Assembly (NCBI RefSeq): GCF_030160115.1
Contig: NZ_BSNS01000018.1
Location: 1 to 64,000 of the forward strand
Length of the DNA stretch: 64,000 nt
Reading direction: 5' to 3'
Source of the DNA: Devosia nitrariae
Lineage (GTDB): Bacteria; Pseudomonadota; Alphaproteobacteria; Rhizobiales; Devosiaceae
A program made the translations under genes and the position numbers. This document shows, in pieces, positions 46,115 through 61,818 of this stretch (the stretch's first letter is position 1; every line of letters begins with the position of its first letter). The notes under the pieces are model-generated. The model made no database searches and was not told where the DNA came from. It saw only the letters and a list, made by a program, of their open reading frames with translations.

Positions 46115-47215
46115 TCAAGCGAGGCGTTCCGCCGTCTTGAGGAAGTCGGGATCGGGATCGAGCGCCATGCCCGGAACGTCGGGGCAGGTCACGGTACCGT
46201 CGGCATTCACGGGAGCGGTATGGAGGAAGAAATCCGGTGTGCCGGCGGGTTTGGGGTAGTATTCCAGCATCCGGGCGTTGGGAATTGCTGCGAGCAGGTT
46301 CAGGTGCGCGAGTTGTTCGCCATGGGGGCAGATGTCCAGCCCGTTGGCATCGGCCATCGCGGCGATCTTGAGGAACTCGGTAACGCCGCCGGTGTATCGG
46401 GCGTCCGGTTGCAGGATGGAGATTGCCCCGGTCGCGATCAGATCGCGGAAACCATGCTTGGTATACTCGTTCTCGCCGGTCGCAATGGTGACGCCGGTCG
46501 CCTCGAACAGGCGGCGGAATCCCTCGTAATCGTCGGGCTGTACCGGCTCCTCGAACCAAAAGATGTCCTGGTCCTCCAGGCGGCGGGCGAGCGAGATCGC
46601 ATCATAGGCGCGATAGGCGCAATTGGCGTCGATCATCACTTTGATGTCTGGACCGACGGCATTGCGAACGGCGCGCACGCGCTCGACATCTTCAGTGATC
46701 GAGACGGCTCCGACCTTCATCTTAACAGCGCGGGCACCCATTTCGACATAGCCCACCATTTCCTCTGCGAGCTCCTTGAGGCCCTTGTCCGGCGCGTAGT
46801 ACCCCCCGGCGGTGTAGATCGGGATATCGGTGCGGTAGCCACCGACGAGCTTGTAGAGCGGCAGGCCCGCTACCTTACCCCTGATGTCCCACAGTGCGGT
46901 GTCGATCGAGGAGAGGGCACGCGTTTCCATGCCGCGCCGCCCATAGAGCTTGGGCGACCAGAGCTCTTTCCAGATCGCCTCCGTCATCAGAGGATCGCGA
47001 CCAATCAGCTTCTTGGTGAACTGTTCGCGAAAGGCACGCTCGGCGGGGCGAGGGCGGCCGATGCCGTACCCCGTGATGCCCGCGTTCGTCTGCACTTCGA
47101 CGAAGCTGATCTCATGATTGGTGTAGGTGTGGAGCCCGTTGCTGATGGGAACATCCCGCTTCCACTTATACTCCTTGACGTCTATGGCAGTGATCTTCAG
47201 TCCGGAGGCAGTCAT
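46115..47215 (-). CDS. Enolase-superfamily sugar-acid dehydratase (mandelate racemase subgroup)
   Basis: 366 aa from ATG 47215. The active site can be read: KMK at 165-167 (general base Lys), metal ligands Asp196 (DAN), Glu222 (EEP) and Glu248, then Asp271 and His298 (CPHGEQL) as the His-Asp dyad. This is the mandelate racemase/galactonate dehydratase group, which removes water from aldonic or uronic acids. It is encoded between the binding protein and the permeases, so the transporter probably brings in a sugar acid or glycoside, not a peptide. Exact substrate unknown. Confidence 0.93.
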   Translation of the reverse strand: MTASGLKITAIDVKEYKWKRDVPISNGLHTYTNHEISFVEVQTNAGITGYGIGRPRPAERAFREQFTKKLIGRDPLMTEAIWKELWSPKLYGRRGMETRALSSIDTALWDIRGKVAGLPLYKLVGGYRTDIPIYTAGGYYAPDKGLKELAEEMVGYVEMGARAVKMKVGAVSITEDVERVRAVRNAVGPDIKVMIDANCAYRAYDAISLARRLEDQDIFWFEEPVQPDDYEGFRRLFEATGVTIATGENEYTKHGFRDLIATGAISILQPDARYTGGVTEFLKIAAMADANGLDICPHGEQLAHLNLLAAIPNARMLEYYPKPAGTPDFFLHTAPVNADGTVTCPDVPGMALDPDPDFLKTAERLA

Positions 47216-47263
47216 CGGTAGGTCCTGAATGGCTTCTGGTAGAGCGGCGGCAGGGTCGCATGG

Positions 47264-47289
47264 CGGGAGTGCGCCGTGGCACACTCCCG
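47264..47289 (-). terminator. Hairpin after the binding-protein gene
   Basis: CGGGAGTG and CACTCCCG pair perfectly, with a GC-rich 10-nt loop region between, in the 89-bp gap between the solute-binding gene and the enolase gene. There is no T-run, so it is more likely an mRNA-stabilising or attenuating stem that raises SBP over permease expression. Confidence 0.55.
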
Positions 47290-47304: not shown

Positions 47305-49209
47305 CTACTGAGCGCCGGCCGCGTACTGCTCCACCTGCGTCGGGCCTGGGAACAGGGGCGCCGAACTGGCATAGGCCACCGAAGGCACGTTTTGCAGGCG
47401 ATGCACGCCGATGCCGTTCACCGGCAGGCCAAGGCCAAGGATGTTGAACTGCTCCTTGTGGATGGCGAGGATCTGCCGGTAGAGGTCCGCCTGCTTTTCG
47501 AGGTCGGGCTCAACCTGCATCTGCTCGTGAAGCGCGATCACGTCCTTCATCCACTGCGGCGGCTCCTGCGGGTCGGCGCCGCCGACAGCCCAGTGCACCC
47601 ATCCCGTCATCCACGCGGAGTCGGCGTTGAGCGGCACGTAGGCACGGGGGAAGACGTACGTGTTCATCGAGGCGCCGTCGCCGTCATCCACTAGGACATG
47701 GTGCTCGTTGGCGTTGCGCAGCGTATCCTTGGCGGCCTTCTCCAGCGAGCGGGACTGTACGTTGAAGCCGATGGCGCGCCAGTCCTCCTCGAGGAAGGGC
47801 AGCATGTCGACATAGGGCTGGCGGTCGGCACGCGTGGTGATCACGAAGTTGATCGGCTGGCCGTCCGGGGATAGGCGCCACCCATTGGCGTCCCGCTTAT
47901 CGTAGCCCGCCGCGTCGAGCAGCTGGTTCGCCATCTCGGGGTCGTACTGAGTGAACTGCGTGCCCATCTCCTCGTCGTAGAACTGCTTTTCTTCGGGACG
48001 CGGCGAGATCTGGTGCGGCGTTCCCTGGCCCGCATAAACGATATCGATGATCTCCTGCCGATCGATAGCGACGCTCAGCGCGATGCGCACGTCACGGTTC
48101 GAGAACAGGGCCTTCAGCACCGGGTCTCGCGCCGTCTGGTTGAGGTGGATCTGCACCGGAGATGCCGCCGCCCCATTGACGATCTCGAAGAACTTGAGAC
48201 CCGCCTTCGCTTCGTTGTCGAACATCACGGCGCGGTTGGCCGGCGTGTTGACGTAGCGGGCGTTGTAGTCCACCTCACCGTTTAGCACCTTGAGCAGCAT
48301 GACTTCGAAGTCCTTGACGACTTCAATTGTCGAACCGTCGAGGTACGGCAGCTGGTTTCCCTGATCATCGATCTTCCAGTAGTAGGGGTTGCGCTCCATG
48401 GTGATGATCTCGGTATCGTCTGCGCGCCGCGTGTACACCCAGGGTGTGATCACCGGCTTTTCGAGATTATTGTAGATGTTGTGTCGCTCCATGAACCGCT
48501 CTTCCCAGTTCGTGAAGCCGGCGGCGAGCGCCTCTTCTTCGGCGTTCGCGTTGAAGTCCGGGTGGAACTGTTCCATGTAGTGGCGCGGGTATGTCGCGAG
48601 CCAGATGCCGCTGTTGGTGGCGAGCTGGAGCGGCAGCATCGACTTGGAGCGGCCAAAGGTGAACTTCACGGTATAGTCGTCGATCGCCTCGACCTTCAAC
48701 TCATCTTCGGCCGTGAGAAAGCCCAACCGGAACAGGGGGTCGATATTGTCGTTGAACTGCACATGCTCGGCCCAGAACACGATGTCGGCGGCGGTGAATG
48801 GCTCGCCGTCCGACCACTTCATGCCCTCGCGCAGATCGAAGATGTACTCCGTGGCATCGGCGTTGACCTCGTATCCTTCGGCTATGTTCGGGAGCACCTC
48901 GCTCATCTCGTTGTTCCAGCGCATCAGCGGCTCGTAGTGGTAGAAGGTCTGGAGCCACGACTCGTCGCCCGCGCCCTGGTAGACCTGACGCAGATTGCCG
49001 CCGTAGGTGCGGACGCCGTCTACCGGCACAATGACCATCGGTTCGCTGCCGACGCGATCGGCGACCGGGGGCAACTCTTCCATGGCGTCGAGCATGGGGG
49101 CCTGGGCGATGGCCGTCTGGGCCAGCACGGAAGGTGCAATCAGGACAGAACTCAGCAGTCCGGCAAGGACCACGTGCGAATAGGCAAGTCGTCGCGCGAA
49201 GCGTCTCAA
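47305..49209 (-). CDS. ABC transporter solute-binding protein, family 5 (OppA/DppA type)
   Basis: 634 aa. A signal peptide (LAYSHVVLAGLLSSVLIAPS then VLAQ) exports it. ESWLQTFYHYEPLMRWNNEM, NADATEYIFDLREGMKWSDG and EPFTAADIVFWAEHVQFND are family 5 signature blocks; it is longer than the usual 500-550. It captures the substrate for the Opp-like permeases. First gene of the operon, divergent from a LysR gene; GGGAGGGG precedes the ATG. Confidence 0.95.
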   Translation of the reverse strand: MRRFARRLAYSHVVLAGLLSSVLIAPSVLAQTAIAQAPMLDAMEELPPVADRVGSEPMVIVPVDGVRTYGGNLRQVYQGAGDESWLQTFYHYEPLMRWNNEMSEVLPNIAEGYEVNADATEYIFDLREGMKWSDGEPFTAADIVFWAEHVQFNDNIDPLFRLGFLTAEDELKVEAIDDYTVKFTFGRSKSMLPLQLATNSGIWLATYPRHYMEQFHPDFNANAEEEALAAGFTNWEERFMERHNIYNNLEKPVITPWVYTRRADDTEIITMERNPYYWKIDDQGNQLPYLDGSTIEVVKDFEVMLLKVLNGEVDYNARYVNTPANRAVMFDNEAKAGLKFFEIVNGAAASPVQIHLNQTARDPVLKALFSNRDVRIALSVAIDRQEIIDIVYAGQGTPHQISPRPEEKQFYDEEMGTQFTQYDPEMANQLLDAAGYDKRDANGWRLSPDGQPINFVITTRADRQPYVDMLPFLEEDWRAIGFNVQSRSLEKAAKDTLRNANEHHVLVDDGDGASMNTYVFPRAYVPLNADSAWMTGWVHWAVGGADPQEPPQWMKDVIALHEQMQVEPDLEKQADLYRQILAIHKEQFNILGLGLPVNGIGVHRLQNVPSVAYASSAPLFPGPTQVEQYAAGAQ

Positions 49210-49315
49210 GGTATCCCCTCCCTGGATGCGGCGCGGCGGTCGCTTTCGACCCGTCCGCGCCTTAGGAAGGTCCTCCGCCTTCCCAACTATGACTCATAGG
49301 CAGGGATAGGGATGT

Positions 49316-49357
49316 CGTCTAATCATCAATAGTAAGGACTCGATGACCTGAGGTTAT
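49316..49357 (+). promoter_or_regulatory. Bipartite leader motif of LysR gene 1
   Basis: CGTCTAAT (49316-49323), 22 bp, ACCTGAGGTTAT (49346-49357), ending 7 bp before the LysR ATG. The same two blocks with the same 22-bp gap occur upstream of the LysR gene at 51955-52884. ACCTGAGGTTAT is part of an imperfect palindrome and overlaps the ribosome-binding site, consistent with autorepression. Confidence 0.65.
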
Positions 49358-49364
49358 TGCTACG

Positions 49365-50300
49365 ATGTCTCGCTACTCCAGTCGCATCAGTTTGCGTGAG
49401 ATGGAGATGATCCGCGCCATCCTTACGTACGGCACGATGGCAAAGGCGGCGCAGATGATAAACGTCTCCCAGCCGGCAATCAGCCGTATGGTCAAGCAGG
49501 CCGAGGACCGTACCGGCCTGCAGTTTTTCGAGCGCCGCGGCTCAAAGCTAATCCCCACGCCCGACCTGACGACACTGAGCCGCGAATTCGAAAAGGTGTT
49601 CGCGAGCGTCGACCGCGTTCAGGCGTTGACCTTGGCCCTCGGTGCCGGCCTCGGCCGCCCTATACACATCTCGTCCATGTCGGTTCTGGCCGAGACCATG
49701 CTGACTCCTGCGCTTGTCGATCTGCGCCGACGGCATCCACAAACGCCAATTGCCGTCAGGCTCAATCATCGTCCTGGCGTCGAGCAGGAGGTCATCCGAG
49801 AAGAGTCGGATCTGGGCCTTGTACATGGCATTGCACAGCATGATGCGCTCACCGCAATCAGCCTATGCAGCGCCCACGTGGTATGCCTGATGCACTGCGA
49901 CCATCCGCTTGCCGCATGTTCCGAGCTCGGTCCAGGCGATCTCGCCGAGGAGCCCCTGATTTCGATGGGCCGCCTATCGCCGCTCAGCCAGCAAGTCATC
50001 GACGCCTTCGACGCGGCCGGCATTGCCCGTCGGATCAGCATTCAGATCGCGGATTCCGGTCTGGCCGCGCACTTCTGCGCCAGCGGTCTCGGCCTTGCGC
50101 TGCTTGATCCATTCTTCCTCAGCTCTGGCCTGCCCGAGCATCTTGTCATGCGGCCTTTTACCCCCACCATTCAGATCGAATGCTTTGCGATCCACTCGAA
50201 CCGCCGCGTCCTACCGGAGCTCGAGGCCGACCTCCTCGAGAGCCTCCGGGCCGCCGGAGCACAGTGGGAACGCAGGTTTCGCGAAATGTTGGCCACCTAG
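49365..50300 (+). CDS. LysR-family regulator, divergent from the opp-like operon
   Basis: 311 aa. HTH: ISLREMEMIRAILTYGTMAK, AAQMINVSQPAISRMVKQAE; effector domain PIHISSMSVLAETMLTPALV onwards. It resembles NocR/OccR-type LysR regulators that control opine or amino-acid uptake. Divergent from the SBP gene across 155 bp, so it is likely the importer regulator. It shares a leader motif with the second LysR. Confidence 0.92.
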   Translation: MSRYSSRISLREMEMIRAILTYGTMAKAAQMINVSQPAISRMVKQAEDRTGLQFFERRGSKLIPTPDLTTLSREFEKVFASVDRVQALTLALGAGLGRPIHISSMSVLAETMLTPALVDLRRRHPQTPIAVRLNHRPGVEQEVIREESDLGLVHGIAQHDALTAISLCSAHVVCLMHCDHPLAACSELGPGDLAEEPLISMGRLSPLSQQVIDAFDAAGIARRISIQIADSGLAAHFCASGLGLALLDPFFLSSGLPEHLVMRPFTPTIQIECFAIHSNRRVLPELEADLLESLRAAGAQWERRFREMLAT

Positions 50301-50779
50301 AGAGCGAGATCAAGGGTACTTGACGTAACCGTAAGTGGCCGCGAGTCTTGCACGCGTCGAACGATTGGTTAGGGCCACTTTTGGCCTCTGGCACCCGGTA
50401 GTCGTTTGTCCGCTTTTTTGTTGCTTCCTCCCCCAGTAGCGGACGGCAGGCTTCCGGCCCCACTTCCGTCAGTGGATCGATCGAGGACCCCTTGCAGAAG
50501 GCGGCCGTAGTCGGAATCCTTCATACTGGCGGCTAGCACAAGCACGATGAGGCGCAGGTGAACTTCGTCCTCGGCTGACTTATTCGGATCGTCGCATCCA
50601 ACCAAGACGCTCGCTCGTAGTAGCTCCAGCGCCCCGCGGATGCCTGACCAAGTCGTTTGGGGAGCGCGTCCGCGAGAGCCCAGAGTTCCATAATCTGACG
50701 TTATGTTGCGGTTCCCAATGTGAATTGGACGTACCGGGCCGTACGACCTAGCTCTTCTCACAAAAGCGGAGGGCATGTC
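50301..50779. other. Intergenic region, possible reverse-strand remnant
   Basis: 480 bp. A minus-strand frame (50369-50821) contains a plausible protein stretch (IRGALELLRASVLVGCDDPN, LRLIVLVLAASMKDSDYGRL) with a low-complexity tail, but its 5' end overlaps the next plus-strand gene and I recognise no family. It may be a small hypothetical gene or a remnant. Confidence 0.35.
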
Positions 50780-51919
50780 GTGAGACGATATCGTGCAGGA
50801 GCTATTGGTGACACCGGGCACGTTGATAACGCAGGCCGGTACCTAGGTTTCGACGCGAGCCACGGCCTTCATTTGCCCTACAAGGACCTCGAACAATTCG
50901 AGATGACTGCCGTTGCCGATCACGACCCATCCGCGAGAGCGCACGGCATGGACATCACAGGCGCCCTTCGATCCTATTCTGATTATCGCGAGATGCTCGC
51001 CACGGAGCGGCTGGACATCGTCAGCGTCTGCTCGCGGCAAGCAAGCCGCCATGAAGAGATGGTGCTCGCTGCTGTCGCCACTGGTTGTCATGTGTTCGTG
51101 GATAAGCCGTTTACCGTTGATTTGGCATCCGCGGACCGGATTGTTCACGCTTGCGATGCGGCCGGGGTAAAGCTCGCCGTTGCGCATCAAAGTCGGTATC
51201 TGGAGCCCTTCCTGACGGCCCATCAAATGCTGCTTGCGGGTGAGATCGGTTCTCTGGTGACCATGCGAGGTCGCGTGAAGGAAGATCACCGGGGTGGTGG
51301 CGAGGATGTAATCTGCTGCGGGGTCCACATCCTCGACCTGATGCGGATGTTTGCCGGCGACCCGCAATGGGTATCGGCCTATGTCAGCGTAGAGGGTAGG
51401 GCGGTGACGAAGGCGGACGCCTATGTACCAGTGGACTGCAACGGTCTTGTTGCCGGAGACAGGACCGACGCTGCCTTCGGGTTCGAGGGCGGCGTCATAG
51501 GTCACCTCACCTCAGTTCGTAACCAGCATGATTGGGGAGAGCGCTGGGGTCTGACTCTCGAAGGTACCCGAGGGGCGGTTTCGTTGCGCATGTTCAACGA
51601 CCTTTCGTCGCCTTCGAAACTCAGCATCAGTCGGAAACGATCGGTCCCGGAGGAGGCTGGTCCGTTCGAAATTCTTGAGGTCCCACTTGAGCCCGAAGTT
51701 CCGGGTGCCGTTCCTGCCAACACCGGTTATCCGCCACTGAGAGGCAACAGGCAGGCGGTTTTTGACCTGATGAAGGCGGCCGAAGAGCGTCGCGAGCCCA
51801 AGTCCAGTGCACGGGATGGACGATGGACGCTTGAGATGGCGCTTGGCATTTATCAGTCACACCTCAGCCAGCGCCGAGTGGCCTTACCTTTGGCAGATCG
51901 CTCTCACCCGCTCGAATAG
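50780..51919 (+). CDS. Gfo/Idh/MocA-family dehydrogenase
   Basis: 379 aa from GTG 50780 with GGAGGG 8 bp before. The Rossmann N-terminus is RAGAIGDTGHVDNAGR; the NAD-site Lys is in VDKPFTVDLASADRIV (the usual EKP is DKP here); HRGGGEDVICCGVHILDLMR is the substrate-side His-Asp motif. Oxidises a sugar hydroxyl with NAD(P). It is a paralogue of the 54384 gene (same blocks, same C-terminus with H-P). Monocistronic, convergent with the LysR at 51955. Confidence 0.9.
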   Translation: MRRYRAGAIGDTGHVDNAGRYLGFDASHGLHLPYKDLEQFEMTAVADHDPSARAHGMDITGALRSYSDYREMLATERLDIVSVCSRQASRHEEMVLAAVATGCHVFVDKPFTVDLASADRIVHACDAAGVKLAVAHQSRYLEPFLTAHQMLLAGEIGSLVTMRGRVKEDHRGGGEDVICCGVHILDLMRMFAGDPQWVSAYVSVEGRAVTKADAYVPVDCNGLVAGDRTDAAFGFEGGVIGHLTSVRNQHDWGERWGLTLEGTRGAVSLRMFNDLSSPSKLSISRKRSVPEEAGPFEILEVPLEPEVPGAVPANTGYPPLRGNRQAVFDLMKAAEERREPKSSARDGRWTLEMALGIYQSHLSQRRVALPLADRSHPLE

Positions 51920-51954
51920 TTGGCCGGTTTTGGAAACGGGACGGTTGCGGGTGC

Positions 51955-52884
51955 CTAAGCGGGCACCGCATTAACGCGCATCAGCGTTTCTACAAACTCC
52001 TGGTCTATCGGCGGCCTCTCTTCGTCGGCGCGGGTGATGATGCCATAATCGTCCAGACCTGCGGGAACGGTTATCGGCAGGCGCCTGATCCGCCCCATCT
52101 TGATCTCGGATCTAAGGAGGACAGAAGGAAGACTCGAGATCATACCAGCCTCCAGCACCAGCTGCATTGTCGCATGTACCGACGTCGTTTCCACCAAACT
52201 CCTCGGGGCTCCTCCCTTGGAAGTGAAGAATTCTTCCATGAGCAGCCGCAGGGGACTAGTGATCGGCTGGAGGACCCAGGACTCCTCCAACAGGTCTGCA
52301 GTGGTCGGCTCGATCTGCGCCAACGGGTGATCGGCGGCGGCGAACAGCCAAATTTCCTCATTGCCGAGGGCCGCGAACGTAGTAGCCGACGACGTTGTTT
52401 CCGAGCGCCGCCCGATGACGATGTCGAGCCGTTGCTGCAGCAGCGCAATCACCAGCTGATCGCTCGTTCCGGTCATTAGTCGGATGGTGACCAAGGGCCG
52501 GAGTTTTTTCATGTCGGCTATCGCCGTCGGAAGGAGCCGGTGAACCACCGACGTTATCGCTCCAACGCGCACGACGCCGTGACCCCCCTCGCGCATCACG
52601 CGGGAGTCATCGAGAAACTTGACGGCCTCGTCGATGGCGCGATGCGCGTAGGTGACGGCCAACTGGCCTACCTCGGTCGGCCGCATTCCTCGGGGAAAGC
52701 GCTCAAAGAGCCTGGAGCCGACGATGTCCTCAACCTCTTGAAGCATTTTTGTGGCGGCCGGCTGCGTCATCACCATCTGCCGCGCCGCCGCATTGAGATT
52801 GTGGGTCCTGCCGAGCACAGAGATCAACTGAAGTTGTCTGAAGCGCAGTCGAGCCATGGCGTTGTGATAGCGGGAGTGGAACAT
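51955..52884 (-). CDS. LysR-family regulator, divergent from the glycoside cluster
   Basis: 309 aa. HTH: RLRFRQLQLISVLGRTHNLN, AAARQMVMTQPAATKMLQEV; effector domain from VVRVGAITSVVHRLLPTAIA. GalR/PcaQ-like GbpR group LysR members with this N-terminus often control sugar or aromatic uptake. It is divergent from the family 1 SBP gene. Its start has the ACCTGAGGTTAT block only 2 bp upstream. An alternative start is Met10. Confidence 0.92.
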   Translation of the reverse strand: MFHSRYHNAMARLRFRQLQLISVLGRTHNLNAAARQMVMTQPAATKMLQEVEDIVGSRLFERFPRGMRPTEVGQLAVTYAHRAIDEAVKFLDDSRVMREGGHGVVRVGAITSVVHRLLPTAIADMKKLRPLVTIRLMTGTSDQLVIALLQQRLDIVIGRRSETTSSATTFAALGNEEIWLFAAADHPLAQIEPTTADLLEESWVLQPITSPLRLLMEEFFTSKGGAPRSLVETTSVHATMQLVLEAGMISSLPSVLLRSEIKMGRIRRLPITVPAGLDDYGIITRADEERPPIDQEFVETLMRVNAVPA

Positions 52885-52886
52885 CG

Positions 52887-52928
52887 ATAACCTCAGGTAA
52901 TAACAACCTAGGAGAAACTCATTAGACG
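52887..52928 (-). promoter_or_regulatory. Bipartite leader motif of LysR gene 2
   Basis: On the minus strand CGTCTAAT (52928-52921), 22 bp, ACCTGAGGTTAT (52898-52887), directly before the LysR ATG. Identical blocks and spacing to 49316-49357. Confidence 0.65.
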
Positions 52929-53022
52929 GCTATCGCTGTGGGGTCTAGCCTGAACCTGCGTTTGGGCTGGTGACCATGAGGAGGCCTGGCTCACCTTCTG
53001 CCGGCGCGGATGGGAGGAGAAG

Positions 53023-54312
53023 ATGACAATCAATACCAACAGACGCACATTTCTGCTCGGCAGCGCGGCAACGATCGCCGCCGCTGGCATGGGCGTCCGG
53101 GCTACTCTTGCGCAGGAAGCGACGGTCCGCATGTTCTGGTGGGGATCAGCGCGACGCAATGAGCTTCAAACGGCGATCAACACTCTCTACGAGCAGCATT
53201 ATCCGAACATTGCGATCTTGGGCGAAACGGCAGCCTTCAACGACTATTGGCCGCGCCTTGCAACGCAGGTCGCGGGTGGCAATCCGCCCGACGTGATCAA
53301 CATGGACTATCGGTATCTGGCCGAATATGGCGGCCGCGGAGTATTGCTTCCTCTGGACCAATATGTCGGGGGTGCTCTGGGTGTTGCTGACTTCGGACCA
53401 GGTCTTGATGGCGGGCGGATGAACGGCACTCTCTACGCCGTCCCCTGCGGGGTGAACACGGCTGCGATGGTCGTGAACAGGGGCGCCTATGAGGAGGTGG
53501 AACTGGAGCCGCCTTCCGCGGCGATGACTTGGACGGAGTTCTCCGACAACGCCGTTGCCCTGACGGAAACGACCGAAAGGCCCCACTATTATGGTTCGAG
53601 TGACGGCAGCGGCAAAGAACCGGTGCTTGAGGTCTGGCTGCTTCAGCGAGGAAAGTCCCTCTACACCACCGAGGGACAACTCGGATTCACCGCCGAAGAC
53701 GCAACGGAGTGGTTCCAATTCTGGCAGGATCTACGCGAGCGGGGCGGCTGCCCACCGCCAGATGTCGTTGCGCTTGATCTTGACACATTCGAAACCGGTC
53801 TCGTGAACACCGGCTATGCTGCGCTGAACTTTGCGTTCTCGAGCAATCTCATCGGTTATCAGTCGCTCAATCCGGAGCGATTGACGTTGGCGACTTACCC
53901 AGTACCCGATACCAACCCACAGCCGGGCCACTACCTCAAGCCAGCCATGCTGTTCAGTCTTGCGGCCGAAACGCAGGTCGTCGAGGAAAGCCTCGACTAC
54001 CTCACGTTCCTGCTAACCGATCCAGAAGCCACCAAGATCATGGGGCTGGAGCGGGGAGTGCCGCTTTCTCCCGCAGTGCAGGAGAATATCGCCCCGACCC
54101 TGGACGATCAGCAGCGCGAGATGCTCGATTTCATAGCCAATCTCGACGATACGGTCCTCGCCGATCTACCGCCGCTGCCGCCGCAAGGGGCGGGCGAGGC
54201 GGAGACAATCCTCTTGCGCATCAGCGAGGAAGTGGGTTTTGGCGTGACCACGCCGGAAGCGGCGGGCGAACAGCTCGTCAGCGAAGTCAGCGCTACGCTC
54301 CAAAGGGTGTGA
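53023..54312 (+). CDS. ABC transporter solute-binding protein, family 1 (sugar type)
   Basis: 429 aa. A Tat-like signal NRRTFLLGSAATIAAAGMGV then ATLAQE. MFWWGSARRNELQTAINTLY and WPRLATQVAGGNPPDVINMD, plus the C-terminal half, fit family 1 sugar binders (MalE/UgpB-like). No permease or ATPase genes for a sugar importer are in the window, so it must use components elsewhere or act as a sensor. First gene of a plus-strand run; a strong hairpin separates it from the next gene. Confidence 0.92.
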   Translation: MTINTNRRTFLLGSAATIAAAGMGVRATLAQEATVRMFWWGSARRNELQTAINTLYEQHYPNIAILGETAAFNDYWPRLATQVAGGNPPDVINMDYRYLAEYGGRGVLLPLDQYVGGALGVADFGPGLDGGRMNGTLYAVPCGVNTAAMVVNRGAYEEVELEPPSAAMTWTEFSDNAVALTETTERPHYYGSSDGSGKEPVLEVWLLQRGKSLYTTEGQLGFTAEDATEWFQFWQDLRERGGCPPPDVVALDLDTFETGLVNTGYAALNFAFSSNLIGYQSLNPERLTLATYPVPDTNPQPGHYLKPAMLFSLAAETQVVEESLDYLTFLLTDPEATKIMGLERGVPLSPAVQENIAPTLDDQQREMLDFIANLDDTVLADLPPLPPQGAGEAETILLRISEEVGFGVTTPEAAGEQLVSEVSATLQRV

Positions 54313-54328
54313 CGCGGTTGTTCCTCCC

Positions 54329-54359
54329 GGACAGTGAGCGCCTTGGGCGCTCACTGTCC
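54329..54359 (+). terminator. Perfect 14-bp hairpin after the sugar SBP gene
   Basis: GGACAGTGAGCGCC (54329-54342), TTG, GGCGCTCACTGTCC (54346-54359): 14 bp perfect stem, 3-nt loop, followed by ACCCTCTTGTT. It lies 17 bp after the SBP stop and 25 bp before the next start: terminator or processing/stability stem for differential expression. Confidence 0.8.
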
Positions 54360-54383
54360 ACCCTCTTGTTCTAGGAGTTCCTC

Positions 54384-55505
54384 GTGAACGCTTCACGGAT
54401 CTATCGAGCCGGCGCAATCGGTCACACCGGATTTGGCGACTATGGTCACCTACTGCACCTCCCGTTCCAGCATATCCCGAACGTCGAAATGGTCGCCATC
54501 GCGGATCCCGACGAAGCGGGGCGCGAGAAAGCGATCGAGGAGAGCGGAGCAGAGGCCGGGTATGCCGATTACCGGGAGATGCTGGAAAAGGCGCAACTCG
54601 ATATCGTCAGCGTCTGCCCGCGTGAGTCAGCCGAGCACAAGGACATGATCCTTGCCGCCATTGCCGCAGGCGTACATGTTTACAGCGACAAGCCGCTCGC
54701 AGTGGATGTCGCTGAATGCGACGAGATCGTGGAGGCCAGTGAAAAAGCCGGTGTGCGGGTAGCCGTGGCCAAGCAGAGCCGTTACGTCGAGCCCTTCCTG
54801 ACCGCTAAGAAACTGCTGGAAGTCGGTGAGATCGGGGATCTCGTAACCATGCACGCCCGCGGCAAAGAGGACCACCGCGGTGGCGGTGAAGATACCCTGG
54901 TACTCGGCGTCCATATGATGGACCTGATGCGTTGGTTCGCGGGCGACCCCCAGTGGGTGTTCGGGCGCGTCACCAAAGATGGGCGGGAGATCACCAAGGC
55001 GGATGCCTTCCAGCCGACCGAGAGAAGCGGCCCGGTCGCCGGCGATGCCGTCCACGCTATGTACGGCTTTGAGAAGGGGGTTATTGGTCACTTCGTCAGC
55101 GCTGCCAACCAACACCATCGTGGAGATCGATGGGGTTTCGTCCTGGTCGGCACCAAAGCGAGCATCGCCATTCGCTTTTTCATGGACATGGAATCCCCCT
55201 CAAAGATGCGGATCACCCAAGCCAATATGGTGCCCGAAGAGGCTGAGGGTTGGGAGCCGATCGACGTTCCACCGGAGCCGGTTGTTCCCGGCAGCCCGCC
55301 GCTGGCGACCGGCCATCCGCCCACGCGCGGCAATCGCCTCGCGATCGCCGATCTCATTCGAGCCGTCGAAGAGGATCGCGAACCGCTAGTCAGCGCCCGA
55401 GATGGGCGTTGGGCCATGGAAATGGTGCACGGTATCTATTGGTCGCACCTAAGTGGCTGTCGCGTGCCGTTCCCCCTCGAAAAACGCAAACACCCTTTGA
55501 TTTGA
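54384..55505 (+). CDS. Gfo/Idh/MocA-family dehydrogenase
   Basis: 373 aa, start GTG. RAGAIGHTGFGDYGHLLHLP replaces the standard GxGxxG start; YSDKPLAVDVAECDEIVE is the NAD-site Lys; KEDHRGGGEDTLVLGVHMMD gives the His/Asp substrate motif. Paralogue of the 50780 protein. A sugar or glycoside C3 oxidation is likely, given the DUF1080 gene downstream in the same run. Confidence 0.92.
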   Translation: MNASRIYRAGAIGHTGFGDYGHLLHLPFQHIPNVEMVAIADPDEAGREKAIEESGAEAGYADYREMLEKAQLDIVSVCPRESAEHKDMILAAIAAGVHVYSDKPLAVDVAECDEIVEASEKAGVRVAVAKQSRYVEPFLTAKKLLEVGEIGDLVTMHARGKEDHRGGGEDTLVLGVHMMDLMRWFAGDPQWVFGRVTKDGREITKADAFQPTERSGPVAGDAVHAMYGFEKGVIGHFVSAANQHHRGDRWGFVLVGTKASIAIRFFMDMESPSKMRITQANMVPEEAEGWEPIDVPPEPVVPGSPPLATGHPPTRGNRLAIADLIRAVEEDREPLVSARDGRWAMEMVHGIYWSHLSGCRVPFPLEKRKHPLI

Positions 55506-55560
55506 TTACTGCGCTGCATCGCTCCACCGCCGCAATCCGCCAGCTCAACAGGTTGGATAT

Positions 55561-56652
55561 ATGAAGACCCTTCGTTACGTCATCGTCGGCATCGGGGCCG
55601 GCATCCTCTCCCAGCACAAGATGGCGCTTGAACTCGGTTCGTTCGAGCTCGTCGGCGGCATGGATGTCACCGAGAACGGACGGCTCCGGGCCGGGGAGCT
55701 CCGAGTTCCGTTCTATGACGATCTCAACTTGCTGATATCCGAGACCCGACCCGATGCGGCGGTGATCCTGGCACCGCACCCGTTCCATGCAAAGCTTGCC
55801 ATTCAGCTCCTGGATGCCGGGGTGCATGTGCTGGTGGAAAAGCCGATTGCTGTCCGCACTTCGGAGGCCGATGCGATGATCGAAGCGGCAAAGCGCAACG
55901 GACGCAAGCTTGCGGTCAATTTCCAGCATCGGGCTCGTGGCGAGATACTGACGCTCTCGCGCCTGATCAAGGAAGGGCAACTGGGCCAGGTTCAGACAAT
56001 CCATATGGTCGCGGCGTGGCCAAGGACCACGTTCTACTACAAAAGCGGGGCATGGCGCGGCACGTGGCGCGGTGAAGGCGGCGGCGTGCTGATGAACCAG
56101 GCGCCGCACAACCTGGATCTATGGTGCTTCATGTTCGGGCTGCCGAAGCGTGTCTTCTCCTGGACGCGCAACCTCATGCACGACATTGAACCGGAAGACA
56201 CCGTGCATGCGATTTGCGAGTGGGAGAGCGGTGCACTGGGATCGCTCCATATCTCCACAGCCGAGGCCGGCCGCATGGAGACGCTGGAGGTGGTCGGCAC
56301 TAAAGGCTCAGCCGTTGTTTCGGGCAAAGAATTGATCTTCAGGAGCTTGAAGGAGGACTTTGCCCTAACCGCCAAGACGAGCGCCGAAGCCATCCCCATC
56401 ATCACGGCCGAACTCGGCGAAATGCAACTTCAGCCAGGCGACGGCCATCACCTCGATGTCTATCGCAACTTCCACGACGCCATAGTGAATGACGCCCCTC
56501 TGTTGGCTTCCGGAGAGCAGGGGCGCCAGTCACTTGAACTCGCCAACGCCATGATCCTCTCGAGCCACGAGAACCGACCAGTGGAGCTACCGCTCGATCG
56601 CAAGCGGTATGACGAGTTGCTCGACGAACTGATCGCGAAAAGCAATGATTGA
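55561..56652 (+). CDS. Gfo/Idh/MocA-family dehydrogenase
   Basis: 363 aa. Rossmann start LRYVIVGIGAGILSQHKMAL; VEKPIAVRTSEADAMIEAAK contains EKP; GGVLMNQAPHNLDLWCFMFG is the catalytic N-x-x-x-H-x-x-D region seen in sugar oxidoreductases. Its last 8 bp overlap the next gene. Together with its neighbours it could perform oxidation and re-reduction around a keto intermediate. Confidence 0.94.
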   Translation: MKTLRYVIVGIGAGILSQHKMALELGSFELVGGMDVTENGRLRAGELRVPFYDDLNLLISETRPDAAVILAPHPFHAKLAIQLLDAGVHVLVEKPIAVRTSEADAMIEAAKRNGRKLAVNFQHRARGEILTLSRLIKEGQLGQVQTIHMVAAWPRTTFYYKSGAWRGTWRGEGGGVLMNQAPHNLDLWCFMFGLPKRVFSWTRNLMHDIEPEDTVHAICEWESGALGSLHISTAEAGRMETLEVVGTKGSAVVSGKELIFRSLKEDFALTAKTSAEAIPIITAELGEMQLQPGDGHHLDVYRNFHDAIVNDAPLLASGEQGRQSLELANAMILSSHENRPVELPLDRKRYDELLDELIAKSND

Positions 56653-57850
56653 AGCAGCTGTTATCGGAATTGGCGGGTTCGGTGCCATTCACGTTGCCGA
56701 TTTGAAGCGACAGGCGGAGAAAGGCCGTGTTCGCTTATCGGCCGCGGTCGTACGCAACCCAGAACGGCACGCGTCTGCCTGCGCAGCCCTGCGGGACATC
56801 GACTGCACGCTCTATACGGATTGGCGGGCGATGCTGCACGAGCGGGCAGGCAAACTCGACCTTTGCACCATTCCGACGTCGATCCATACGCACGCAGCGC
56901 TCACGATTGCCGCTTTGGAGGCAGGTGCAAACGTGCTCGTCGAGAAACCGGCGGCGGCGACCCTCGGCGAGATCGACGCCATGCGCGCGGCGGAAACCGC
57001 TGCTGGGCGGTTCGTCGCGGTCGGCTTTCAGGCGCTCTACGATCCGGTGACGTTATACATCAAGCAAGCACTGCTCGATGGGGCCATTGGCGATATCCAG
57101 TCCATGAGTTGCATGGGCATGTGGCCGCGGTCTGATGCCTACTACGCGCGTGACTGGGTGGGTACGCTCAAGCTCGGTGAAGCATGGGTGCTCGATTCAC
57201 CCTTCAACAATGCGATGGCGCATCAGGTCAATCTCATGTGCTTCCTCGCCGGGACCGAATTGGGCGAGTCCGCAAACCTGAAGAGTACCGAAGCCAACCT
57301 CATGCGTGCTCGTGACATCGAGACCACCGATACGGTTGCCCTTCGGATCATCACCTCGACCGGCGTTCCGATCCACTTCTTTGCCACTCATTGTTCTCAC
57401 GAAAGCGTCGATCCCGAGTTCGTCATCCGAGGCAGAAAGGGGACGATCCATTGGACTCTCGCAAACGTTCGGCTGCAACGGCGCGGGCACGGTGCCGAGG
57501 TTTTCGAATGCCTCAAGGGCCCGCCTCTACGTGATGCTCTGATGGACGCGGTTCTGGAGCGAACGGCTGGTCACGACCAGTTCGTCTGTGGCCTCGATAT
57601 TGCCGCAGTGCATACGCTGTGCGTTGCAGGTGCGCACTTGTCCGCCACGGTTCACCCATTCCCGAAAGATCTAATCTCACGCACGCCTGCCGGTGAATCG
57701 TTCAACACAGTGATCAACGGTATCGACGGAGTTATACGTCAGGCATTTGAGCAAGAACGCTTATTCAGCGAAATGGACCTGCCCTGGGCCGTTCCGGGCA
57801 CGGCGGTCTCGCTCGAGCAGCCGGGGACGATTACCGAGGCTTATCGATGA
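56645..57850 (+). CDS. Gfo/Idh/MocA-family dehydrogenase
   Basis: 401 aa. AVIGIGGFGAIHVADLKRQA holds GxGxxG; VEKPAAATLGEIDAMRAAET holds EKP; the substrate side is FNNAMAHQVNLMCFLAG. More diverged from the other three. Translationally coupled at both ends: 8 bp overlap upstream and ATGA downstream. Confidence 0.93.
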   Translation: MIEAAVIGIGGFGAIHVADLKRQAEKGRVRLSAAVVRNPERHASACAALRDIDCTLYTDWRAMLHERAGKLDLCTIPTSIHTHAALTIAALEAGANVLVEKPAAATLGEIDAMRAAETAAGRFVAVGFQALYDPVTLYIKQALLDGAIGDIQSMSCMGMWPRSDAYYARDWVGTLKLGEAWVLDSPFNNAMAHQVNLMCFLAGTELGESANLKSTEANLMRARDIETTDTVALRIITSTGVPIHFFATHCSHESVDPEFVIRGRKGTIHWTLANVRLQRRGHGAEVFECLKGPPLRDALMDAVLERTAGHDQFVCGLDIAAVHTLCVAGAHLSATVHPFPKDLISRTPAGESFNTVINGIDGVIRQAFEQERLFSEMDLPWAVPGTAVSLEQPGTITEAYR

Positions 57851-58221
57851 GGATCGAGCACCTCGCCTTCAATGTTACCGCGCCATTCGAAATGGCCGAC
57901 TGGTATGTCGCACATTTGGGCATGCAGATCGTCAAACGCGGCGAGACGGGCTGCTTTCTCTCCGACAAATCCGGGATGTTGCTCGAACTCTACGAAGATG
58001 CGGCAGCCCCGGCACTTGATGGTTTTTCCTTTCCGCCCGCGACCTTCCACCTGGCCTTCGCTGTTGACGAGGTAGAGAACCTGCTAAGAGCGCTAGTTAA
58101 AGGGGGCGGCCGGCAGGAGGGGACCCTGCGCACCTTGCCCAGCGGCGATCGTTTGGCCTTCGTGCGTGATCCATGGGGATTTCCGTTGCAGCTCGTCAGC
58201 CGAGCCGGTGCAACACCATGA
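57847..58221 (+). CDS. VOC-superfamily (glyoxalase-like) protein
   Basis: 124 aa, one VOC domain: MRIEHLAFNVTAPFEMADWY, ADWYVAHLGMQIVKR, TGCFLSDKSGMLLELYED, FHLAFAVDEVENLLRALVKG, RLAFVRDPWGFPLQLVSRA. Metal ligands His5 and Glu (LELYED) and a C-terminal site are kept. Could isomerise or epimerise a keto-sugar, as sugar-linked VOC proteins do. Overlaps both neighbours by ATGA. Confidence 0.93.
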   Translation: MRIEHLAFNVTAPFEMADWYVAHLGMQIVKRGETGCFLSDKSGMLLELYEDAAAPALDGFSFPPATFHLAFAVDEVENLLRALVKGGGRQEGTLRTLPSGDRLAFVRDPWGFPLQLVSRAGATP

Positions 58222-58922
58222 CCGTCTTCGACGACCTGACCAGCTTCGAGCGGATCACCCCCTCAGCCGGTTTTCCAGGCTGGAGCGAACTGCCATACAC
58301 GTTCACCTATCCGCCCGCCTGGTTTGCCGATTTGGAGCGACGGGGCGTCGATCTCGCGAAGCTTAGGACAACGCAACTAGATCCGCCCTCGCAATGGTCG
58401 GTCGACGAGAGTACTGGAATCCTCACGTGCCTAGGAAATGGCCCCCACAGCTGGCTGCGATTTGACCGACCCATGCGTGACTTTCGAGCGCATGTGGAGT
58501 GGCGGTTCGTCAAGCTGGAGCGCCCTGCGCTCTACAATAGCGGCGTCTTCGTGCGCAACGACCCCGCACGCAATATCTTCACCCAAATCGAGACCGGTTT
58601 TGATCGTCGAACAGCGGGGTTCTTTTTCACCAAAAAATTCGTCGAAGGCAATAAAACGGCCGTCTATGGGCTGCGCCCGGCAGGAGAGAACCAATACGTG
58701 CCCTTTGATCCCTTCGATCCCGACATACCCAACCTCATTAATCCTGCGGGCGAGTGGAACACCTATGACATCGCGGTAGTCGGCCGCGAGGCGAAGTTGT
58801 GGACCAACCAGGTGCACAACAGCCTTTTTACCTGTGAACTCGACGAAGGCTATTTCGGCCTCGAAGCCGAGATGCATCACATCGAATTCCGCAATATCGC
58901 CATCAGCGAGCATCCACGATGA
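58218..58922 (+). CDS. DUF1080 (3-keto-disaccharide hydrolase-like) protein
   Basis: 234 aa. MRDFRAHVEWRFVKLERPAL, NSGVFVRNDP, TAVYGLRPAGENQYVPF and WNTYDIAVVGREAKLWTNQV followed by YFGLEAEMHHIEFRNIAI are the DUF1080 concanavalin-like pattern. Family members cleave 3-keto-glycosides. No signal peptide, so it should work in the cytoplasm on a product of the Gfo/Idh/MocA enzymes. Last gene of the run, starting by ATGA overlap. Confidence 0.9.
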   Translation: MTVFDDLTSFERITPSAGFPGWSELPYTFTYPPAWFADLERRGVDLAKLRTTQLDPPSQWSVDESTGILTCLGNGPHSWLRFDRPMRDFRAHVEWRFVKLERPALYNSGVFVRNDPARNIFTQIETGFDRRTAGFFFTKKFVEGNKTAVYGLRPAGENQYVPFDPFDPDIPNLINPAGEWNTYDIAVVGREAKLWTNQVHNSLFTCELDEGYFGLEAEMHHIEFRNIAISEHPR

Positions 58923-59225: not shown

Positions 59226-59885
59226 TCAGCTGTGCTGACAGATGCGCATCATCTTGATAGCGGCGGCGGCGGCGCCGAATCCATTGTCGATGTTCACCAC
59301 GACAACGCCTGGCGCGCAGGTCGCGAGAGCCGAGGATAGGGCCGCGTGGCCGTTGGCGGAAACGCCATAACCGATCGAAGTCGGCACGGCGATGACCGGC
59401 GCCGCGATGAGCCCGGCGAGCACGCTGAACAGAGCGCCCTCCATGCCCGCAGCGGCGATCACGACTCTGAACTGTCGGATTTCCTCGAGGCGCGAGACCA
59501 GCCGCCACAACCCCGCGACACCGACATCTGCAACAATGGGAGCGGCGTATCCCATGAATTCCAGCGTTGCCGCTGCTTCGTAAGCAATGGGCGTGTCCGA
59601 AGTGCCCGCCGTAACGATTCCGATGCCGGACTGAAGTGTTGTCGGGGGCACGCTGGAACTTGCCGTTTGCGACCTGTCGGACCTGGCCAGCACGCTTTGG
59701 ACCTCTGGGCTGAGACGCGAGAATACCTCCTGCGTGAGCCGCGTCAGCAGCAACGGCATCTGCCGTTCCGTCGCGGATTGAACGATAGCCTCTATCTGCG
59801 CCACGCTCTTGCCCGAGCAAAACACCGCCTCCGGAAAGGAGGTGCGTTTCGTGCGCTGCCAATCGAGCTGGAACTCCGCGATCAT
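59226..59885 (-). CDS. larB: NPN cofactor biosynthesis protein LarB
   Basis: 219 aa, PurE-like. GIGIVTAGTSDTPIAYEAAA, VGVAGLWRLVSRLEE, IRQFRVVIAAAGMEGALFSV, VPTSIGYGVSANGHAALSSA and NIDNGFGAAAAAI match LarB, which carboxylates and hydrolyses nicotinic acid adenine dinucleotide to the P2CMN precursor. Last gene of the lar operon; its start overlaps the larE stop by 4 bp. A complete N-terminus confirms the length. Confidence 0.95.
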   Translation of the reverse strand: MIAEFQLDWQRTKRTSFPEAVFCSGKSVAQIEAIVQSATERQMPLLLTRLTQEVFSRLSPEVQSVLARSDRSQTASSSVPPTTLQSGIGIVTAGTSDTPIAYEAAATLEFMGYAAPIVADVGVAGLWRLVSRLEEIRQFRVVIAAAGMEGALFSVLAGLIAAPVIAVPTSIGYGVSANGHAALSSALATCAPGVVVVNIDNGFGAAAAAIKMMRICQHS

Positions 59886-60649
59886 CTAAGGAACATAGCC
59901 CCCTGCCGATAGCCGTGGATGCCGACAAGGACGCGGCCTTCGGCGCGGCACCGGCTTGCCACCACGAGCTCGATCCGATCCCTCATCGGCATCGCACCAT
60001 CATCGAGTTCGATCTCAATCCCCTGGCGGGTCACCCGGCAGCGAACATTTGAATTCGCAGGACACAGCGCTCGCACAGCGACTTCCACGGCGTCAACAAA
60101 AGCGAGGTCGTCGGCCGAGATGGCAATCCCGGTCTCAATCCTGCTGGCGAGGCATGGTTGCGCCGGCAATTCGGCAACTGCATCCAGTCCCAGTTCGCGA
60201 GCCAGACGTCGAACAGTTTTTTTGTCCATTCCCGCCAGGACATAGGGGTGGATGACTGAGCTCTCCGAAGCGGCAGCGAGGCCAGGCCGGAAGTCGGCCA
60301 AATCGTCCTGATTCGTTCCCGAGGCTATAGGAGCATTGGAGATGCTGCGAATGCGTTGGTAGAGATTTGTTTTGCAGAAGTAGCAGCGGTTTGCCGGGTT
60401 GTCCCGGTACCGCGGATCCTCGAATTCGCCCGATCCGATGATATGCAGCCGCCAGCCCTGCGCTTTGGCCATGGCTTCTACCCGCTCGGTAGCAGCGGGC
60501 GGTACGGCGGGAGAAACGGCATGTACCATCATGACGGTTCGGTCCAGCCGATGGGCAAAGCTGGCAAGCGTCATGCTGTCCACCCCGCCGCTGGTGGCAA
60601 TGACCAGCCCGGGATGTTCGATGATGACGCTGGCAAGCCGCTCAGACAT
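59882..60649 (-). CDS. larE: NPN cofactor sulfur-insertion protein LarE
   Basis: 255 aa from ATG 60649, which overlaps the larC stop by 8 bp. PP-loop ATSGGVDSMTLASFA (residues 20-25 SGGVDS) adenylates the pyridinium carboxylate; NRCYFCKTNLY and ELPAQPCLASRIETG carry the conserved cysteines; the latter is the sacrificial sulfur donor in single-Cys LarE. It makes the dithiolate ligand of the nickel pincer. Confidence 0.94.
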   Translation of the reverse strand: MSERLASVIIEHPGLVIATSGGVDSMTLASFAHRLDRTVMMVHAVSPAVPPAATERVEAMAKAQGWRLHIIGSGEFEDPRYRDNPANRCYFCKTNLYQRIRSISNAPIASGTNQDDLADFRPGLAAASESSVIHPYVLAGMDKKTVRRLARELGLDAVAELPAQPCLASRIETGIAISADDLAFVDAVEVAVRALCPANSNVRCRVTRQGIEIELDDGAMPMRDRIELVVASRCRAEGRVLVGIHGYRQGAMFLR

Positions 60650-61817
60650 CGCCAGGGGTCTCCGCAAGAGCGCGATTGCGGCGGCGCTGGGCGAGCGAGT
60701 GGCCAGCAATATCGTCGTTTTCGGCCTTGATCGTCACCTCGCCGCCGGGACGGCCGACCGACTTTGTGCGCACACCTCCCGACGCCGACAAGCTGCGGGA
60801 CAGCGTGCGGCGAGCGGTCTCGTGCCAGCGCAGTCCAATTGTAGAGGTCAGGCTGAGGCACGCATCCATGATCGCATCGGCCGAGCAGGGCGTGGCGAGG
60901 ACCTGAAAAGCCGTCATCGGTCGTTGTTTCTTGCCCAGCATATGCCCGACTGTCACGTCCAGTACGCCGGGCGTCGTGCGCAGGAGGTCCGAGGCTGTGC
61001 CGATTTCCTCTCCGGTCATGTCATCGACTTCGAAGTTGATGACCGTAACCCGGTCACCGTCGGCCTCGTAGGTGTCGAAAACCAAGGCTCTCAATATGTT
61101 CGGCATCCCCTTGAGCTCGCGCGTGCCGGCCCCCGTGCCCGAGCACGTCAATCGCCCCTCGCCGCGGCCAGTCGAGCGGGCATCGATATATTTCAGAATG
61201 GCAGCGCCCGTGGGCGTGACCCGCTCGCCGTCTATGGCGTCATCGCGGAACGCGAAGCCCTCGAGCAGCCGCGTCGCGGCCGGCGCGGGTACCGGAAGCA
61301 TTCCATGTTGGGTTCTGACCAGGCCGCCGCCACGCGGCAGAGGCGACACGGTCCACCGAGCCACCCGAAGTGCGGCGATTATGCTGCCAGCAGCGACGAC
61401 ATCGAGCAGGGAATCCCACCCGGCAAGTTCATGAAAGTGCACTTGATCGACCGGAACGCCGTGGATGGCGCTTTCCGCCTCGGCCAATAGCGTCAGAATG
61501 CCGACGGCGTGTCCCGCCGTGCCGTCGGAAAGCTCGAGCATTGCAATAGTCGCACGTAACTCGCTGAACTGCGCTGGCGCCTGGCCGAGTCTTGTGCCGG
61601 CCAGCGCTGCGCCAAGGCTGGGTCGCAGGCCAAACCGCCTGCAGGCGATGGCGCCGCTGGAGCCTGTGGTGAAAACGGGGACGCCGGCCATTGGCGGCAC
61701 GGCTGCGCATGCATCTGCCAGTACTCGGTCTTCGAGGCTCGGGAAGGCGTCAATCATCGCGGCAACGAACATGTCGCCTGCGATCCCTCCAACGGCGTCG
61801 AGATGAACATGCATCAT
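60642..61817 (-). CDS. larC: NPN cofactor nickel-insertion protein LarC
   Basis: 391 aa. HLDAVGGIAGDMFVAAMIDA, SAIHGVPVDQVHFHELAGWD and LVRTQHGMLPVPAPAATRLL are the LarC core; the C-terminal domain follows (INFEVDDMTGEEIGTASDLL). In Lactobacillus larC needs a programmed frameshift to join two parts; here both parts lie in one frame. It inserts nickel into the cofactor. It starts one base after the larA stop. Confidence 0.94.
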   Translation of the reverse strand: MMHVHLDAVGGIAGDMFVAAMIDAFPSLEDRVLADACAAVPPMAGVPVFTTGSSGAIACRRFGLRPSLGAALAGTRLGQAPAQFSELRATIAMLELSDGTAGHAVGILTLLAEAESAIHGVPVDQVHFHELAGWDSLLDVVAAGSIIAALRVARWTVSPLPRGGGLVRTQHGMLPVPAPAATRLLEGFAFRDDAIDGERVTPTGAAILKYIDARSTGRGEGRLTCSGTGAGTRELKGMPNILRALVFDTYEADGDRVTVINFEVDDMTGEEIGTASDLLRTTPGVLDVTVGHMLGKKQRPMTAFQVLATPCSADAIMDACLSLTSTIGLRWHETARRTLSRSLSASGGVRTKSVGRPGGEVTIKAENDDIAGHSLAQRRRNRALAETPGDV

Positions 61818-61818
61818 G

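Follow-up and report, generated by a model that had tools for sequence, protein, structure and literature searches.

Two genes encoding LysR-type regulators in Devosia nitrariae, lysR-A and lysR-B, begin immediately downstream of the same bipartite sequence element. What is the function of this element, and which protein recognizes it? We have studied the window in which both genes lie, a stretch of 64,000 nt of contig NZ_BSNS01000018.1 (assembly GCF_030160115.1; host genome of 5.54 Mb, labeled G000). An initial annotation took the element for a leader shared by the two regulator genes, and proposed that both regulators bind it as a common operator that ties an opp-like importer to a cluster of Gfo/DUF1080 genes. 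We consider it probable that the element is the LysR operator-promoter of target genes, with LysR-B as the common regulator of the promoters of a solute-binding-protein gene, of gfo1 and of the opp-like operon, repressing its own start. Three sites, their identical geometry, their rarity in the genome and their conservation together with LysR-B in a second species can be read directly from the sequence; LysR-A may share one of them, site A.

Copies, layout and rarity of the element

A scan of the window allowing up to three mismatches located CGTCTAAT-N22-ACCTGAGGTTAT at two places, 49316-49357 (+) and 52887-52928 (-), with 0 mismatches in each, where 100 dinucleotide shuffles of the window gave an expectation of 0 matches. 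The copy by lysR-A, on the side of the opp-like genes, is termed site A and that by lysR-B site B; site C is a further copy before gfo1. The distance from the element to the ATG is 7 nt for lysR-A (49365) and 2 nt for lysR-B (52884), in agreement with the 2-7 bp annotated initially. A genome-wide scan had been suggested as a check, and it excludes random frequency for the two exact copies, the dyad ATNACCTNAGGTNAT being confined to A and B in the complete genome with one mismatch tolerated. Chance as the origin of A and B is rejected by the shuffles, the genome scans and the control of the 136-genome sample described below.

The arrangement becomes clear on the opposite strand, reading toward the genes divergent from the regulators. 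Sites A and B then have the form ATAACCTcAGGT(C/A)AT - 19 bp - ATTAGACG - 16 bp - CTA(TGA/GCC). The dyad ATAACCTcAGGTnAT is a T-N11-A inverted repeat, followed after 19 bp by a -35-like ATTAGACG and after a further 16 bp by a -10-like CTA. The dyads of A and B each have six of seven symmetric pairs, and the operators adjoining the two lysR genes agree at 14/15 bases; by inspection the dyad of C, ATAATCTGACGTTAT, is likewise T-N11-A. The spacers are unrelated, with 4/19 and 3/16 identities between A and B, 7 and 2 between A and C, and 2 and 5 between B and C, so the conserved blocks look selected. Both regulators match HTH_1 and LysR_substrate above the Pfam cut-offs, and are 23% identical over 232 aa. 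They are thus not recent copies, in agreement with the initial annotation, which had found no close likeness between them, and this divergence together with that of the A and B spacers leads us to reject a recent duplication of the regulatory region.

Site C is absent from the initial annotation. When as many as three mismatches were tolerated, a scan of the genome found six places against three in the control, and one of the six, 50690-50729, falls within the intergenic region that separates lysR-A from the Gfo/MocA gene gfo1. The composite there (50690-50753) reads ATAATCTGACGTTAT-19-ATTGGACG-16-CTAGCT and is directed at gfo1. Such a count does not set C apart from the control, and the case for C comes from its position before gfo1 and its rank in a matrix from which it was left out. 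The score matrix was trained on site B and two sites of Devosia riboflavina only, A and C being omitted to avoid circularity, and was run over both strands of the whole contig (163,160 positions). Sites B, A and C took ranks 1-3, with scores of 42.1, 36.2 and 32.5, far ahead of the fourth, which was site A read in reverse at 15.9. The remaining three places of the genome scan (L004-L006) reached at best 7.6, 9.8 and 14.1. The regulator is divergent from the target at A and B, while C has no adjoining divergent lysR. In the host genome a relaxed composite, with one mismatch allowed, is limited to two places 3.5 kb apart, a count that excludes C because its dyad has two mismatches.

Is the element then a leader, that is, a 5' part of the lysR transcript with a function in the RNA itself or in its translation? 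Its dyad adjoins both ATGs and, at lysR-B, extends over the likely ribosome-binding site, which bears out in part the initial claim that the palindromic half covers this site. The same composite nevertheless stands before gfo1 of the window and before gfo2 of D. riboflavina, where the gene that follows directly on the strand concerned is not a lysR, and its position and -35/-10 geometry suit the promoter of the divergent target. We therefore reject a leader or RNA element for lysR as highly improbable; the bipartite element with its 22-bp spacing is exact, but it is not a lysR leader. A puzzling 'leader' ahead of a pair of regulators can turn out to be target promoters read in mirror image.

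A related question is whether CGTCTAAT serves mainly as the -10 box of the lysR promoter, with its spacing to the dyad set for autorepression and target activation secondary. TCTAAT resembles a -10 box, and by eye the lysR-B strand reads CTAGAC-N16-TCTAAT both in the window and in D. riboflavina; in C and at D. riboflavina gfo2, neither of which has a divergent lysR beside it, the block is ATTGGAC. Yet site A lacks an upstream CTAGAC, a weak site before D. riboflavina gfo1 has ATTAGAGG though no lysR is divergent from it, and the block is retained where no lysR follows. We think this explanation improbable as the main role of the block. A double role for CGTCTAAT, as -35 of the target and -10 of lysR, is possible, and the two divergent promoters at lysR-B may overlap, with TCTAAT as the lysR -10.

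Conservation in relatives

In a family sample of 136 genomes the composite, with up to two mismatches, was present in four genomes including that of D. nitrariae itself, and control matches were found in none. One of the four is D. riboflavina IFO13584 (G039, contig 18), with one site before the solute-binding-protein gene divergent from its LysR-B orthologue and another before gfo2. At both promoters the composite is operator-19-ATTRGAC-16-CTA, as in A, B and C. The gene order gfo1, lysR-B, solute-binding protein, gfo2 is common to the two species, with identities of 58.5, 61.7, 64.0 and 66.9%, respectively. A LysR-B orthologue was detected at E ≤ 1e-60 in 2/136 genomes, G000 and G039, and LysR-A at E ≤ 1e-40 in G000 alone (1/136), with no match in D. 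riboflavina. Because D. riboflavina keeps the sites and a 62% identical LysR-B orthologue without a LysR-A match, the site tracks LysR-B. Matches there to the family-5 solute-binding protein of the opp operon are at the level of paralogues (best 39%), so the operon of site A is without a clear counterpart in that species. Conservation in related genomes, a further check suggested initially, is thus seen in the D. riboflavina cluster with its LysR-B, but only 4/136 family genomes carry a site.

More distant regulators were sought in order-level samples, of 397 genomes for the LysR homologues and 357 for the relaxed composite. LysR-B homologues at E ≤ 1e-50 were found in 5/397 genomes, own included, the four others being 38-45% identical. 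In three of these four the divergent region contains a site of the ATAACC type, separated by 19 or 20 nt from an ATTNNNN block: ATAACCTTCGCTCAT-19-ATTATCCG-16-CTAG adjoining the gene in G238, ATAACCGATGGTAAT-20-ATTGGAA in G391 and ATAACCGATTGGAAT-19-ATTTTCG in G338. For LysR-A the same threshold gave one homologue among the 397, a 35% identical protein in G163 that is divergent from an opp-like operon and whose best site is ATACTCCCAGCTTAT-19-ATTTGACG. Across the class, LysR-A at a threshold of E ≤ 1e-42 was matched by the protein of the window alone (1/289). On plasmids, LysR-A homologues (23 records, 8/23 read) are 27-34% identical, with upstream sites that vary among the eight, and LysR-B homologues (nine records, 5/9 read) are 35-37% identical.

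The relaxed composite occurred at 31 places in 28/357 order genomes, with two control matches. Twenty-nine of the places lie outside the host genome, and 19 of these were readable as loci, of which 3 kb each was inspected for LysR genes. A divergent LysR-type gene was found at 7/19, all in other Hyphomicrobiales; in five of the seven the DNA-binding domain begins no more than 30 nt away, and in the other two at 156 and 167 nt. Since the relaxed composite occurs with diverse regulators, the element represents a class of LysR site and is not private to this cluster. Two of the loci, L059 and L061, come from two genomes of one genus; the LysR gene is divergent, and the target gene lies ~90 nt past operators ATAACCAAGAGTTAT and ATAACCAAGCGTTAT, each followed by ATTGGACG. 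These sites are possibly another regulon of the same class.

Which regulator reads the sites

The persistence of the sites in D. riboflavina beside a LysR-B orthologue, with no match to LysR-A at E ≤ 1e-40, makes LysR-B alone the simplest binder. An operator shared between the opp-like importer and the Gfo/solute-binding cluster, as proposed initially, is supported by the sequence. The proposal that both regulators bind it fares less well, given the D. riboflavina sites that persist without LysR-A.

In such a case the two proteins would recognize the same operators, competing or co-operating at A, B and C. This overlaps with the assignment to LysR-B, which needs no LysR-A, and we regard it as possible but doubtful. 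It would account for the near-identity of the two operators beside the lysR genes and for LysR-A-like regulators elsewhere that adjoin ATAACC-type sites, and it has a precedent in BenM and CatM, described as occupying the same PbenA regions (PMC6628147). The low identity of the proteins argues against it, as does the nearest LysR-A homologue found, in G163, whose best site is the different ATACTCCCAGCTTAT, like site A at 10/15 positions.

The recognition residues bear on the same question. R34 of BenM is said in the same study to contact DNA and to give specificity (PMC6628147), and the residue aligned with it is K46 in LysR-B and R41 in LysR-A. The regulators found through the motif have lysine at this position in 6/7 cases and asparagine in 1/7, and none has arginine, which again speaks against binding by both proteins. 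Among 18 homologues of LysR-A or LysR-B gathered by protein, a set that omits the two window proteins and D. riboflavina LysR-B, lysine is present in 7/7 with an ATAAC-type candidate (judged by eye) and in 5/11 without. This association of lysine for arginine is post hoc, and the sequences are few and related.

A stronger form of double reading would have two proteins of 23% identity and of different subfamilies, probably with different inducers, converging on one operator-promoter design and reading the same three promoters. We find this rather unlikely. If true, the opp-like importer, the Gfo/MocA gene and the solute-binding-protein operon would form a small two-input circuit, with LysR-B acting on the start of lysR-A as well.

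Alternatively, there could be two independent switches, with LysR-A acting at its own operator A and LysR-B at B and C, their likeness reflecting a common alphaproteobacterial class of LysR site. The relaxed composite does accompany varied LysR proteins, and LysR-A-like regulators elsewhere are divergent from opp-like or other ATP-binding cassette (ABC) transport genes (L031, L035, L038). Four of the seven motif-found regulators (L066, L067, L071, L074) score higher against LysR-A, the others (L059, L061, L073) scoring higher against LysR-B; with the plasmid LysR-A homologue L033, which bears ATAACCTTTGCGAAT, this means that site A could be LysR-A's own. Two independent switches are, however, hard to explain in a genome that has at least 52 HTH_1 matches (150/184 candidates scored) and the relaxed composite at two neighboring places only. 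Site A, moreover, scores 36.2 on a matrix built from LysR-B sites, above the 29.4 that is the best among the inspected loci outside the two Devosia genomes. We therefore judge independent switches unlikely.

The assignment to LysR-B has to be set against several observations. The greater similarity of those four regulators to LysR-A and the site of L033 count against it, as do the position of site A beside lysR-A, the distant LysR-A homologue with a site of the same geometry and the several LysR-A-like proteins beside ATAACC-type sites. Close copies of LysR-B are confined to two genomes; the 40% identical homologue in G258 has ATAACAGAATGGAAT with the second block missing at 19 nt, and a clear ATAACC composite is present in L042 alone of the five plasmid LysR-B homologues read. 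No LysR gene lies within 3 kb at 12/19 of the inspected relaxed-composite loci. In the Devosia clusters themselves, gfo2 of the window has no composite site, unlike that of D. riboflavina, whose gfo1 has a weak third site of the same geometry scoring just 18.6. Finally, the family genomes G072 and G127 have one weaker site each, away from such a cluster and without LysR-B.

These two lone sites have the same geometry. That in G072 (L016:9711) is ATTACCTCAGGTAAT, before a thiolase-like gene (named by eye), and that in G127 (L017:9708) is ATAACTTGAGGTTAT, before a peptidase-like gene and opp-like genes; neither has a LysR gene in its 3-kb locus.

The proposed switch, its genes and known systems

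How might LysR-B operate at these promoters? One dimer of the LysR tetramer would hold the T-N11-A dyad, the recognition site, by the lysR start codon. The other would contact the -35 region (ATTRGACG), whose center is ~30 bp, or three helical turns, from that of the dyad. Once bound by inducer, LysR would help RNA polymerase to start at the target promoter, TTRGAC-N17-CTAnnn, and the fixed spacing would be the distance required for the tetramer to reach from dyad to -35. Counted from the -35- and -10-like boxes, the dyad center is predicted at about -62 to -64 of the target start, where LysR sites are described close to -65 (PMC5002191). The constant spacing would thus suit the demands of a LysR tetramer. 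LysR-B would act at B on the divergent SBP_bac_1 gene, at C on gfo1 and at A on the opp-like operon, lysR-A thus lying beside a LysR-B operator. On operator B it would also block lysR-B itself, since the dyad touches the ATG and covers GAGG, likely used for translation. In this scheme binding and activation by LysR-B, the promoter and start positions and the inducer are predictions; to guess from the neighboring genes, the inducer may be a sugar acid or a keto-sugar- or keto-glycoside-like compound. The features are collected in Table 1.

Table 1. Coordinates of the sites and genes of the locus
Feature	Position	Strand	Basis
SBP_bac_5 solute-binding protein, opens opp-like operon, proposed target of site A	47305..49209	-	domain scan
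Site A -10-like CTATGA, facing opp-like operon	49294..49299	-	predicted promoter
Site A -35-like / activation half ATTAGACG (= CGTCTAAT read on + strand)	49316..49323	-	sequence
Operator A, dyad ATAACCTCAGGTCAT (T-N11-A), 7 nt ahead of lysR-A ATG	49343..49357	-	pattern and genome scans
lysR-A, LysR-type regulator (HTH_1 + LysR_substrate)	49365..50300	+	domain scan
Operator C ATAATCTGACGTTAT, upstream of gfo1	50690..50704	+	genome scan, matrix
Site C -35-like ATTGGACG	50724..50731	+	sequence, matrix
Site C -10-like CTAGCT	50748..50753	+	predicted
gfo1, Gfo/Idh/MocA oxidoreductase, proposed target of site C	50780..51919	+	GTG start at 50780 predicted; mechanical open reading frame from 50720, inside promoter
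lysR-B, LysR-type regulator, proposed common regulator	51955..52884	-	domain scan
Operator B ATAACCTCAGGTAAT, 2 nt off lysR-B ATG	52887..52901	+	pattern and genome scans
Site B -35-like ATTAGACG	52921..52928	+	sequence
Site B -10-like CTAGCC	52945..52950	+	predicted
SBP_bac_1 / SBP_bac_8-type solute-binding protein, first after site B, proposed target	53023..54312	+	domain scan

Behind site B lie genes for the SBP_bac_1 protein, which has a Tat-signal match slightly below the Pfam cut-off, three Gfo/Idh/MocA-like proteins, a small VOC-like protein (by eye) and a protein with the DUF1080 3-keto-disaccharide hydrolase domain. Of the three Gfo-like proteins the first, like gfo1, was domain-scanned and the other two were named by eye. 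Permease genes of a sugar-ABC system that would serve the SBP_bac_1 protein of this cluster, 53023-58922 (+), were not recognized in the open reading frames of the window or the remaining contig, as judged by eye with most of the frames unscanned. A strong hairpin, GACAGTGAGCGCC TTG GGCGCTCACTGTC, lacking a clear T-run, is located at 54330-54358 between the solute-binding-protein gene and gfo2; in D. riboflavina, gfo2 is instead preceded by an operator of its own. Beside the sugar cluster, at 59226-63117 (-), a run of larB- (AIRC domain), possible larE- (no Pfam match, by eye), larC- (Ni_insertion) and larA-like (Lar_N + LarA_C) genes looks like a nickel-pincer lactate-racemase-type set.

Behind site A the family-5 solute-binding protein and an enolase-superfamily protein resembling a sugar-acid dehydratase (both scanned) are accompanied by opp-like transport genes named by eye. 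The enolase-superfamily gene, 46115-47284 (-), is flanked in the operon by the gene for the solute-binding protein and by those for the permeases; its product is arabinonate or talarate/galactarate dehydratase-like, under the NCBIfam cut-offs. Just to the right of the window, at 70388-72223 of the contig, another paralogue of SBP_bac_5 (38% identical) is found together with opp-like genes and with genes encoding a GH42 beta-galactosidase-like protein and a regulator of the GntR/FCD type; no composite site was found among the top matrix scores around this region.

A few literature searches found no published account of this regulon, and the papers listed by one with the operator letters are apparently unrelated by title. 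The locus offers a testable three-promoter regulon for uncharacterized uptake and keto-sugar-type genes in relatives of Devosia. If LysR-B alone binds, this is an ordinary local regulon. The pair LysR-A and LysR-B would also provide a useful natural test of how far diverged LysR proteins share DNA sites.

As judged from the sequence, the view that the switch is of an ordinary, well-known type, a further example of known regulation, is well supported. Like the classical operators of OxyR and IlvY, as described in PMC5002191, it has a 15-bp T-N11-A inverted repeat and a divergent regulator. In those operators the repeat is centered ~65 bp before the target start, with a further contact near -35; here the predicted center is close to that distance and the contact near -35 is putative, with no second dyad evident. 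It differs from the type described there in having three units within 3.6 kb, of which C has no divergent lysR, and an operator B that touches the lysR start codon. The promoter TTAGAC-N17-CTANNN loosely resembles CTTGAC-N17-CTATAT, the sigma-70 form described in Sinorhizobium meliloti (PMC2873474).

The closest named family is PcaQ. TIGR02424 (TF_pcaQ) is the best NCBIfam match of LysR-B, with 153.5 bits against 44.9 for LysR-A, and PcaQ operators, given as ATAACC-N4-GGTTAT with T-N12-A (PMC3557286, PMC12609908), likewise begin with ATAACC. PcaQ of S. meliloti (PMC3557286) also runs a transporter, to go by the title of a work cited there, and the box ATTGCCTGGGGTTAT of the PcaQ-type PA2206 of Pseudomonas aeruginosa (PMC12609908) has the same 15-bp T-N11-A frame. 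Compared with PcaQ, however, the dyad here is ATAACC-N3-GGTnAT with T-N11-A, the neighbors are not protocatechuate genes and the score is far under the equivalog cut-off of 303.8. Membership of PcaQ is rejected on the score and the dyad length.

BenM and CatM of Acinetobacter (PMC6628147) present the nearest parallel to the pair itself, in that a single type of operator is associated with two LysR regulators. Those two are described as having similar DNA-binding domains, whereas LysR-A and LysR-B share 23% identity and differ in the recognition helix.

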